From positions 2,925,001 through 2,989,000 of the forward strand of contig NZ_CP086111.1 in assembly GCF_016806835.2 (NCBI RefSeq): 64,000 nt of DNA. Direction: 5' to 3'. A program made the position numbers and the translations under genes. This document shows positions 36,053 through 41,017 of the stretch, one piece after another (position 1 is the stretch's first letter; each line of letters starts with the position of its first letter). This DNA is from Skermanella rosea. GTDB lineage: Bacteria > Pseudomonadota > Alphaproteobacteria > Azospirillales > Azospirillaceae. The notes beneath the pieces were generated by a model. The model made no database searches and was not told the DNA's origin. It saw nothing but the letters and a program-made list of their open reading frames with translations.

Positions 36053-36337
36053 CTACTCGCCTTCCGCCCGCAACAGGCCACCCTCCACCACCGCCGCCTG
36101 CCGGCACCGGTCCTCCAGGATCACGCGGCCGGTATCGATATAGACCGCGGCCTCCGGCGTCCCGTCCGTCAGGCTGATCAGCATCATCGGCCGGTCGGCG
36201 ACCACGCAGAAGTCGATGATGTACCGGCGGTCCCGCCCGGTCCCGAGCAGCAGGCTGCGGAATTCCCCGCAGCCCGCCACGATCTCGGCCGACCAGCGCG
36301 ACGGCGGATCTCCCGGCACCGATCTGAGCCGAAGCAT
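36053..36337 (-). CDS. Hypothetical protein downstream of the PQQ dehydrogenase
   Basis: 94 residues, no signal peptide and no recognised family. The central part (DRRYIIDFCVVADRPMML, then an AAVYIDTGRVILEDRCRQAA stretch) alternates hydrophobic and polar residues as in a small beta-rich protein. ATG at 36337 lies 9 bp after the dehydrogenase stop with CGGAAG upstream, so it is probably co-transcribed with it. A role with the dehydrogenase is inference from position. Confidence 0.6.
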   Translation of the reverse strand: MLRLRSVPGDPPSRWSAEIVAGCGEFRSLLLGTGRDRRYIIDFCVVADRPMMLISLTDGTPEAAVYIDTGRVILEDRCRQAAVVEGGLLRAEGE

Positions 36338-36346
36338 CTTCCGGAT

Positions 36347-38930: not shown

Positions 38931-39097
38931 CAGCATTCGTCACAAGCAGGGACTTTTTATATTGCGCTGCAAAATGACGGGCTTTTACGAGCATTGTCTC
39001 CAAGCTCCGTTCGTGCTCTAGCCCAAGTTTATTTATTGGAGTAGCCTGACCTGAAGACGAGAATGCCGGAAAACCGGCGTCACGGATTGGGGGGAAG

Positions 39098-41017
39098 ATG
39101 ATCGCGCCCGGATCGACCGCGAGCGACCATATCGACCGCATCATGGCCTGGGTTGACGGAGCCGCCGCGCCGACCAGCCCGCCGCCCCATGGCATCATCG
39201 CCGACTCCTGGAAGCGCTGCGTGCTGAAGCACCGGCTCGACCCGGCCACCGTCAACGCCCCCAACGTCCTGACCCCGCCCGAGCTGCGAGACCATGTCGA
39301 GCCGGTCGGGGAATTCCTGGGCTTCGCCCGGGAAAGCCTGCTCGGCCTCCATGCCCAGCTCGCGGCGTCCGGCTATGTCGTTCTGCTGGCCGATCGGGAC
39401 GGCGTGACGATCGAGCGGTTCGGCAGCTTGCCGGTCGAGGGGCGCATGGCACGGGCCGGGCTGGAACGCGGCGCCGTCTGGGCGGAGGACTGCGAAGGCA
39501 CCAACGGGGTCGGCACCTGCCTCGCGTCGGGCCAGCCGATCCTGGTCCACCGCTTCGACCATTTCGCGGTCCGGCACACCGGGCTGACCTGCTCCGTGGC
39601 ACCGATCCTGGGTCCGGTCGGGGAGCTTCTGGCCGCCCTCGACGTCTCGTCTCTGACCGCGCCGGCGGGCGGACAGTTCCAGTCGCTGGTCCACGGCTTC
39701 GTCATGTCCGCCGCGCGCCAGATCGAGGACACATGGTTCCTCGCCCGAACGCGGGAGAACTGCGTGCTCGCCCTCGCCCGCTCCCCGGAAATGGCGGGGA
39801 TCGAGACGGATGCCATGATCGCGGTCGATCCGGCGGGCACCGTCGTCGGCCTCAACGGCGGCGCACGCAAGCTGTTCGCCGGCAGGGATCTGATCGGCGC
39901 CCGGCTCGACGCCGTGCTCGAAACGTCGCTGGACCGGCTGGCCGAGGGGACTGCCCTGGTCCGCCAGCCCGGCACCGAGCGGCGCTGGGCGGTCAGCCTC
40001 CGCCCGCCGCTGGCGGCACAGAGGCAGCCGTCGCGCCGGCCTCCCGCCAGGTCTCCGGCGCCGGCACGCCCGACACGGCACATGCCGCTCGATGAACTGG
40101 CCGGAGGCGACCCCCAGATGCAGGCCCATGTCCGCCGCATCCGCCGCTTCGTCGACTGCGACCTGCCGATCCTGATGGGCGGCGAGACCGGCACCGGGAA
40201 GGAGGCGTTCGCCCGCGCGATCCACGATGCCAGCGCCCGCGCCGCCAGGCCGTTCGTTGGGATCAACTGCGCGGCACTGCCGGAAAGCCTGATCGAGAGC
40301 GAGCTGTTCGGCTACGCCGAAGGCGCCTTCACCGGGGCGCGGCGCGACGGCATGCGCGGCAAGCTGCTCCAGGCCGACGGCGGCACCCTGTTCCTGGACG
40401 AGATCGGCGACATGCCGCTGGCCGCCCAGACGCGCCTGCTGCGCGTCCTGGCGGAGCGGGAGGTGATCCCGCTGGGAGGTGACCGGGCGATTCCGCTGGA
40501 CCTCCACGTGATCTGCGCCAGCCATCACGACCTGGAGGCCCTGGTCGCCTCCGGCGCCTTCCGGGCCGACCTGTTCTATCGGCTGAACGGCCTGCGCATC
40601 ACCCTCCCGCCTCTCCGGGAGCGGACCGACAAGGCGGAGCTGATCGACCGCGCCCTGGAACTGGAGACCTCGGGGCTGGCCGCCACGCCCCGCCTGACGC
40701 CGGAGGCTCGGTCCCTGCTGCTGAACCACGACTGGCCGGGCAACATCCGCCAGCTCCGGACGGTCGTCCGCGCGGCGGTGATAGGCTGCGAGGACGGGCT
40801 GATCCGGTGCGACGACCTGCCCCTGGGCATGCCGCGCTTCTCCGGCACGGCCTCCCCCGCCTGCACGAGGGCCTGCCCGGAAGCGGAAAGGCTCCAGGCG
40901 ATCCTGCGCAGCCACAAATGGTGCGTGGCCGACGCCGCCCGAAGCCTCAACGTCAGCCGAATGACGCTCTACCGGCGCATGGCCAAGTTTGGGGTCGTGC
41001 CGCCGAACCAGCTCTGA
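39098..41017 (+). CDS. Second sigma-54 activator of the AcoR family
   Basis: 639 residues with the AcoR layout: N-terminal SWKRCVLKHRLDPATV block, GAF-like domain (GTNGVGTCLASGQPILVHRF and GLTCSVAPILGP), PAS-like region, AAA+ domain with GETGTGKEA, GAFTGA at about 409-414 and GTLFLDEIGDMPLAAQTRLL, and C-terminal HTH (SHKWCVADAARSLNVSRMTL). ATG at 39098 preceded by GGGGGAAG. It is divergent from the Rieske-PQQ dehydrogenase operon, which has a -24/-12 promoter, so it most likely senses an alcohol or its product and activates that operon. It is a paralogue of the activator at 25333. Confidence 0.9.
   Translation: MIAPGSTASDHIDRIMAWVDGAAAPTSPPPHGIIADSWKRCVLKHRLDPATVNAPNVLTPPELRDHVEPVGEFLGFARESLLGLHAQLAASGYVVLLADRDGVTIERFGSLPVEGRMARAGLERGAVWAEDCEGTNGVGTCLASGQPILVHRFDHFAVRHTGLTCSVAPILGPVGELLAALDVSSLTAPAGGQFQSLVHGFVMSAARQIEDTWFLARTRENCVLALARSPEMAGIETDAMIAVDPAGTVVGLNGGARKLFAGRDLIGARLDAVLETSLDRLAEGTALVRQPGTERRWAVSLRPPLAAQRQPSRRPPARSPAPARPTRHMPLDELAGGDPQMQAHVRRIRRFVDCDLPILMGGETGTGKEAFARAIHDASARAARPFVGINCAALPESLIESELFGYAEGAFTGARRDGMRGKLLQADGGTLFLDEIGDMPLAAQTRLLRVLAEREVIPLGGDRAIPLDLHVICASHHDLEALVASGAFRADLFYRLNGLRITLPPLRERTDKAELIDRALELETSGLAATPRLTPEARSLLLNHDWPGNIRQLRTVVRAAVIGCEDGLIRCDDLPLGMPRFSGTASPACTRACPEAERLQAILRSHKWCVADAARSLNVSRMTLYRRMAKFGVVPPNQL

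Follow-up and report, generated by a model that had tools for sequence, protein, structure and literature searches.

To which protein does an alcohol dehydrogenase that depends on pyrroloquinoline quinone (PQQ) pass its electrons, if the gene next to its own encodes a Rieske iron–sulfur protein? For the soluble enzymes of this kind, the acceptor generally described is a cytochrome c. The question is raised by a stretch of 64,000 nucleotides from Skermanella rosea (contig NZ_CP086111.1, positions 2,925,001 to 2,989,000; hereafter 'the window'), in which a reading made from the letters of the DNA (the 'sequence-only reading') had noticed a Rieske gene directly ahead of a PQQ dehydrogenase gene. 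As reported here, the two genes form a genuine and ancient pair, and sequence comparison makes it rather probable that the dehydrogenase, like the clade to which it belongs, has the Rieske protein as its dedicated electron acceptor. The two genes are as follows.

38117–38716, minus strand: Rieske [2Fe-2S] protein gene (199 residues, GTG start; Pfam Rieske match, 5e-11)
36347–38101, minus strand, likely start 38074: PQQ alcohol dehydrogenase gene (TIGR03075; member of the Rieske-paired clade)

Conservation of the gene pair

The clade was represented by 103 non-redundant loci, the duplicates L154 and L155 being excluded (L and G numbers are our handles for loci and genomes). A Rieske gene lies within 1 kb of the clade dehydrogenase in 95 of them, upstream on the same strand at 94 and downstream at one; after removal of 13 loci that had been found through Rieske, 82 of 90 loci have it within this distance. 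The median gap between the two genes is 94 bp, with a single gap of about 950 bp (L054, by coordinates) and the next largest of 282 bp. Scanning genome contigs with only the Rieske protein yielded no relative, and a second scan was therefore built on the dehydrogenase alignment: among the best 80 of 560 relatives confirmed with these dehydrogenase-only patterns, 72 have Rieske upstream on the same strand, and the groups given in the record titles include Rokuibacteriota, Binatota, Gamma- and Alphaproteobacteria, Acidobacteria, Gemmatimonadetes and Myxococcota. Three records of metagenome-assembled genomes (MAGs; L076, L077 and L079) are titled Klebsiella pneumoniae, probably wrongly; their clade members group with uncultured proteobacteria.

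Twelve of 398 sampled Pseudomonadota genomes, belonging to 5 of 213 genera and with eight of the twelve from one genus, hold a clade enzyme (826–1068 bits, the next match scoring 499). All 12 have Rieske in the examined flanks, whereas none of 18 lower-scoring, non-clade PQQ enzymes does, and the reverse search (E ≤ 1e-20) found a family Rieske in exactly the same 12 genomes. Chance neighbourhood is rejected on the basis of this co-occurrence, the Rieske-free flanks of the non-clade enzymes and the 72 contig-scan loci. When the 82 genomes of the host's own order were searched for Rieske, 43 had a match at E ≤ 0.001, with strong matches (E < 1e-30) only in G000, G079, G080, G081 and, twice, G058. 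Within the class, 11 of 385 genomes have a Rieske match at E ≤ 1e-12; in all 11 a PQQ dehydrogenase is located within 1 kb of it, being 55–62% identical to that of the window, with the own genome and a single congener as exceptions.

The pair is also found on plasmids. A search of plasmid proteins with the dehydrogenase gave 318 records, and of the 15 listed, seven were examined, all of which carry the pair (Roseomonas marmotae, Azoarcus sp. KH32C, Methylobacterium aquaticum 22A, Paracoccus sp. Arc7-R13, Alteromonas macleodii, Deinococcus aetherius and Paracoccus yeei). The M. aquaticum 22A plasmid bears a second clade copy, likewise with Rieske; in Paracoccus and Alteromonas the dehydrogenase gene is ahead of Rieske, and the Alteromonas locus has a divergent sigma-54 activator gene, as does the window. 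The plasmid search with the Rieske protein gave 16 records, namely these seven, two more from Paracoccus and seven from Thermus or Meiothermus, and a PQQ enzyme adjoins Rieske in nine of the 16 (in the two extra Paracoccus records by coordinates). In the Thermus and Meiothermus plasmid loci L221 and L222, a related Rieske gene is followed by a gene of the TauE/SafE family.

The 103 dehydrogenases form one clade (support of 100% in the Shimodaira–Hasegawa-like approximate likelihood ratio test, SH-aLRT; quick method). The eight loci without an adjacent Rieske gene ('orphans') are scattered within it and require five changes, as expected for losses. The distances among Rieske proteins and among dehydrogenases correlate at 0.79, a value reached by none of 999 permutations; this test covers 92 of the 95 pairs, three Rieske rows (one masked run, one split and one partial) having been left out, and the Rieske tree covers 91 of the 95, with four left out. 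One orphan genome, G826, encodes a strong family Rieske at another place (E 3.3e-51), and the 14 kb examined around it contain no PQQ enzyme; in the tree this protein groups with those of L121 and L123, and the orphan dehydrogenase of G826 falls in the same small group as the dehydrogenases of these two loci. A pair found only here, which the sequence-only reading had named as its refutation, is not what is seen: the pair is conserved across several phyla (95 of the 103 clade loci) and the distances of the two proteins covary.

The dehydrogenase and its missing cysteine pair

The window enzyme scores 590 bits (cut-off 480) against TIGR03075, the methanol/ethanol family of PQQ-dependent dehydrogenases; assignment as an 'acido-empty-quinoprotein' was rejected (372 bits, cut-off 650). 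Its structure model has a mean predicted local distance difference test score (pLDDT) of 87.9. The start at 38074 is preceded by GGAGGAAAGC and is the same in two congeners; it yields the 42-bp gap to the Rieske gene and the WDWD motif at Asp307/Asp309 (316/318 when counted from the longest open reading frame, ORF), both of which the sequence-only reading had given. Residues E208, N274, D316 and D318 of the longest ORF align with positions 199, 281, 323 and 325 of the PedH chain (counted along the alignment), which are the metal ligands of PedH.

The second Asp, two residues after the catalytic one, is present in the window enzyme and at 100 of the 103 clade loci. Ala takes its place in L163–L165, in the plasmid copies of Paracoccus and Alteromonas and in one of the M. 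aquaticum copies. Since enzymes with Ala at this position have Rieske too, the pairing is not tied to lanthanides, and L163–L165 together with these plasmid copies led us to give up the view that every such unit is lanthanide-type. The earlier label 'lanthanide-type' thus fits the residues of the window dehydrogenase, for which use of a lanthanide may be predicted, but it does not describe the pairing as such.

Two features that are usual in the TIGR03075 family are lacking in the window: (i) the Cys-Cys over PQQ, which is not part of the model definition, and (ii) a cytochrome c partner gene alongside, which is not required for membership. The first of these losses extends to the whole clade: the vicinal Cys-Cys of the PQQ-facing stretch is present in 20 of 21 controls and absent from all 103 clade sequences, where position 142 is invariably His, and the window enzyme has Leu-His in place of Cys-Cys. 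To go by the title of Mennenga 2009, the Cys-Cys ring is said to be tied to the transfer of electrons to cytochrome c550. The Roseomonas and the Azoarcus plasmid each carry a second PQQ enzyme (L228, L229) that has Cys-Cys and no Rieske and is followed immediately downstream by an ORF with a cytochrome c domain (PF13442). Of the four other PQQ enzymes checked in the own genome, two (L143 and L144) are likewise without Rieske and are followed immediately by a cytochrome c domain.

The Rieske protein

The Rieske protein of the window carries the motif CSHAGC...CPCHHS, in which C128, H130, C147 and H150 are the 2Fe-2S ligands, intact as the sequence-only reading had stated and invariant across 14 aligned proteins, and C133 and C149 form an extra Cys pair. 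Its motif is that of high-potential Rieske proteins (bc/b6f/Aio type; CxHxxC...CxCH), each position of which is kept in at least 94 of the 95 paired proteins (one row is gapped at several positions and one has Arg for His150). Ser152 is present in all 95, and position 154 is occupied by Phe (80 proteins) or Tyr (15); residues close to a Rieske cluster are reported, to go by the titles of two papers, to tune its potential. The conservation of the cluster ligands and of Ser152 fits a redox role. It speaks against the view that the Rieske protein takes no part in electron transfer during turnover and instead aids maturation of the dehydrogenase or senses the redox state. This view is very improbable; nothing direct favours it, and the nearest parallel is XoxJ, a periplasmic protein of XoxF systems that is without an assigned function according to passages of PMC10875860.

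A twin-arginine motif is located at residues 12–13 of the window protein. Among the 94 Rieske proteins with a readable cluster motif, RR precedes that motif in 92, and RR followed by AxA in 61 (these are motif counts, not signal-peptide predictions).

The AlphaFold2 model of the Rieske protein has a mean pLDDT of 92.5, and its best match in the PDB is 1nyk, the Thermus Rieske protein (TMt 0.93). A cytochrome b gene, which would accompany a Rieske protein of a bc complex, does not lie alongside; the single cytochrome b match of the genome (PF00033) is at C1:888710, about 2 Mb from the window. Assignment as an arsenite oxidase small subunit (arsenite_ox_S, TIGR02694) was rejected at 46.5 bits, against a cut-off of 95.65. 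The same score bears on the alternative that the Rieske protein, like AioB in arsenite oxidase, is a tightly bound subunit of the dehydrogenase, relaying electrons to cytochrome c within a stable complex instead of diffusing. Small subunits of arsenite oxidase follow among the structural neighbours, and the covariation of the two proteins would suit a bound subunit as well; the nearest relative by both sequence and fold is, however, the Thermus Rieske protein and not AioB, and we regard this alternative as unlikely.

Cytochromes c and other neighbours

No match to the cytochrome c families PF00034 or PF13442 was found within the 64-kb window, in agreement with the earlier statement that the locus has no dedicated cytochrome c. 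Across the clade, 25 of the 103 loci have an ORF of at least 90 residues with a CxxCH motif within 1.5 kb, 11 of which belong to 12 loci with a peroxidase-like cluster on the opposite strand; with a looser count (at least 80 residues, anywhere in the examined locus), 10 of 18 controls have such an ORF. These counts cover ORFs in any frame, some of which are not genes. The expectation of a pair conserved without cytochrome c is thus borne out as regards the pair, which spans several phyla, and holds for most loci, but not for all, as regards the cytochrome.

Clustering of the neighbouring ORFs of 92 loci, many of which end close to the pair, was inspected for the 45 largest clusters; beyond the pair and shadow frames it revealed no third partner in most of these loci. 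The largest neighbour clusters are two that occur in the same 12 loci (L082, L085, L087, L088, L092, L095, L096, L102, L107, L108, L116 and L138), one member of one being a CCP_MauG di-haem peroxidase and one of the other YtkA-like. Next come two clusters found in 9 of the 92 loci, for which one member is a Mo-cofactor oxidase and one is without a Pfam match. Mo-cofactor oxidase or aldA genes adjoin the pair at other loci too, including Roseomonas (Mo-cofactor oxidase), and such neighbours fit a route from alcohol to acid.

These neighbours also lend themselves to a different reading, namely that an ordinary cytochrome c encoded elsewhere takes the electrons while the Rieske protein has another task in the pathway, for example with a second periplasmic enzyme of the Mo aldehyde-oxidase type. 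The genome has, outside the window, 36 matches to PF00034 and 29 to PF13442 (overlapping sets), and the Mo-cofactor oxidase genes stand next to the pair in Roseomonas and form the neighbour cluster of 9 in 92 loci (Pfam on two members). Such a division of tasks is nonetheless quite improbable in our view: Rieske is near the dehydrogenase in 95 of 103 loci, and it is present in Deinococcus, where no such enzyme is annotated nearby.

At L053 (genome G438) and in genome G598, the pair is about 6 kb from a second PQQ enzyme scoring about 368 bits. At L053 a CxxCH ORF and ORFs reading as formaldehyde oxidation lie between the two PQQ enzymes, and this stretch is possibly a xoxF cluster.

The proposed electron route and what weighs against it

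The unit would carry out alcohol oxidation in the periplasm, the PQQ dehydrogenase passing electrons one at a time to its own Rieske protein of the high-potential type, which would replace the dedicated cytochrome c. From the Rieske protein, electrons would enter the general respiratory chain, probably via a soluble cytochrome c. The substrate would be an alcohol and, in the window, perhaps a vicinal diol such as 2,3-butanediol.

Several observations weigh against this proposal. First, 8 of the 103 clade loci are without an adjacent Rieske gene, and among the seven orphan genomes other than G826, two have no Rieske match and five have weak ones (best E 7.6e-7 to 7.8e-10), those placed in the tree grouping with other Rieske proteins. 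Most of these seven genomes are draft MAGs; L140 lies in a chromosome-level assembly, and its Rieske absence is for that reason probably real. Second, the correlation of distances drops to 0.35 among pairs with a dehydrogenase distance above 0.3, and the permutation test leaves shared species history in. Third, Rieske and clade enzyme do not always go together: (i) G078, a fifth genome of the host's genus, gave no Rieske match in the search of the own order, (ii) G058 has two family Rieske genes (L042, L043) and one strong PQQ match, a Cys-Cys enzyme, and (iii) two of the seven Thermus and Meiothermus plasmid records were inspected and have no PQQ gene nearby. Fourth, the host has many cytochromes c elsewhere that could serve, and a third M. 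aquaticum enzyme (L230) combines Cys-Cys with flanks in which there is neither cytochrome c nor Rieske. Fifth, the enzyme of Deinococcus aetherius (L219, 5028–6677) is Rieske-paired, yet keeps Cys-Cys and has WDYD; the view that disulfide loss is strictly tied to Rieske was dropped on account of this pair. Finally, what the proposal draws on are comparisons of sequences (the pairing and co-occurrence of the genes, the covariation of their products, the intact metal and iron–sulfur ligands, the twin-arginine motifs of Rieske and the absent vicinal disulfide), from which we infer both the direct transfer to Rieske and the onward acceptor.

In a tree using 38 of the 103 dehydrogenases, the Deinococcus enzyme is sister to the clade (support 97/84). 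Its pair has the Cys-Cys, and pairing may therefore be older than the loss of the ring. It is then tempting to speculate that the clade represents a widespread, hitherto unrecognised respiratory route, present in several phyla and on plasmids, in which the disulfide tied to cytochrome c has been lost and a dedicated Rieske protein is the obligate one-electron acceptor, the Deinococcus pair marking the step before the loss. We lean, if only slightly, towards this wider proposal.

The locus in the window

The remaining features of the locus, and those of a neighbouring operon, are the following.

36053–36337, minus strand: 94-residue ORF (no match in Pfam or NCBIfam)
35776–35943, minus strand: 56-residue ORF, last in the run (no match in Pfam or NCBIfam)
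38846–38862, minus strand: sigma-54 promoter of the -24/-12 type, CTGGCATGCCAGTTGCT, ahead of the Rieske gene (pattern match and congeners)
39098–41017, plus strand: divergent sigma-54 activator of the AcoR kind by its domains (Pfam: GAF, Sigma54_activat of the AAA+ type, Fis-type helix-turn-helix)
25333–30623: aco-like operon (E1 alpha, E1 beta, acetoin dehydrogenase E2) with its own activator
30609–30623, minus strand: sigma-54 site of the aco-like operon (TGGCAYN5TTGC core)

Coordinates and domains agree with the order given in the sequence-only reading, that is, Rieske, PQQ dehydrogenase and 94-residue ORF in one direction and the AcoR-like activator diverging from them. Beyond what that reading contained are the 56-residue ORF at the end of the run and the wide occurrence of the pair. 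Both small ORFs recur in the congener loci L039 and L040, with 96% and 92% identity for the 94-residue ORF and 96% and 95% for the 56-residue ORF; the former was rejected as part of the conserved unit, being found, among the loci searched, only in these two. The genome also encodes pqqE (589 bits against a cut-off of 381).

The -24/-12 promoter claimed between the divergent genes is confirmed by an exact pattern match that is kept in two congeners, as TTGGCACGCCCATTGCT and TTGGCACGCTCATTGCT. Its core, TGGCAYN5TTGC, is found at two sites in the window, where 0.17 would be expected; one precedes the Rieske gene and the other the acoA-like gene. The longer promoter pattern is not enriched there at up to two mismatches (6 found, 9.0 expected), and its sole exact match in the window is the site at 38846–38862. 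A block at about 38914–38947 (minus strand, TTGTGACGAATGCTGTGTGACACGTGTAACGA) is identical in two congeners and may be the binding site of the activator, which in the window probably switches the unit on from the sigma-54 promoter.

The aco-like operon ends about 5 kb from the Rieske–PQQ run. By score, its E2 is an acetoin dehydrogenase E2 (486 bits against 307), its E1 alpha falls below the cut-off of pyruvate dehydrogenase models, and its activator (25333–27318) is 50% identical to that at 39098–41017. The proximity of this operon, with its own sigma-54 site and related activator, suggests a diol or acetoin connection in the window's genus.

Comparison with known systems

The pair of Rieske and PQQ dehydrogenase is in none of the open-access titles and abstract beginnings that were searched; an earlier mention is possible in Keltjens 2014 and Huang 2019. 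The word 'Rieske' is absent from the main text or listing of PMC12628762, PMC5487730, PMC10875860, PMC11996626, PMC7356819, PMC8561711 and PMC6028718, and the Rieske passages of PMC11102522, PMC10715153 and PMC12487129 concern other matters. Adh4 and Adh6 of M. aquaticum 22A are assigned to PQQ-dependent alcohol dehydrogenase (PQQ-ADH) type 6a, which excerpts of PMC7356819 call uncharacterised; the type is that of Keltjens 2014, as cited in PMC7356819 and PMC8561711. According to passages of the latter, some minor members of groups 7–9 are without the double cysteine, and group 7 includes type 6a. The plasmid of M. aquaticum 22A encodes two clade enzymes, at 449 and 144 kb, and we infer that the Adh4 and Adh6 locus tags 1p32165 and 1p30675 would fall at about these positions. 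The clade probably overlaps type 6a, an assignment that draws on these plausible positions and not on a joint tree with reference sequences.

If the proposal is correct, nature has found a second solution to the electron-transfer problem of PQQ dehydrogenases, with Rieske in place of cytochrome c. This could account for the clade enzymes having stayed uncharacterised, and many genes that now bear no other name than 'Rieske 2Fe-2S domain-containing protein' would gain a function. The role of the Cys-Cys ring is moreover open to a natural experiment, the ring being gone in all 103 clade sequences and kept in a sister with the same kind of partner, and culturable strains carrying the pair exist.

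Among known systems, the lanthanide-dependent PedH of Pseudomonas putida (6zcv/6zcw) is nearest to the window enzyme by sequence and fold (38% identity; template modelling score, TM, 0.86–0.90) and, like it, has E, N, D and D at the aligned positions; PedH has Cys-Cys, however, at the place where the window enzyme has Leu-His and an adjoining Rieske gene. XoxF is likewise a periplasmic PQQ dehydrogenase with the lanthanide-type Asp pair, but its partner is the cytochrome XoxG (according to passages of PMC10875860), whereas the gene adjoining that of the window enzyme encodes Rieske. The Rieske protein of Thermus thermophilus (1nyk, 3fou) gives a profile match over positions 46–200 (E about 2e-50); 3fou is named a quinol–cytochrome c reductase subunit, whereas the window Rieske adjoins a PQQ enzyme and has no cytochrome b near. 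In the arsenite oxidase AioAB (8ed4, to go by its title), a Rieske protein is paired with a dehydrogenase that feeds cytochrome c. This dehydrogenase is a Mo and not a PQQ enzyme, and the window Rieske remains below the cut-off for small subunits of the AioB type. Taken together, a little-studied branch of dehydrogenases whose genes usually adjoin a Rieske gene, in the place taken by a cytochrome c gene in several related enzymes, suggests a different route from alcohols into respiration.

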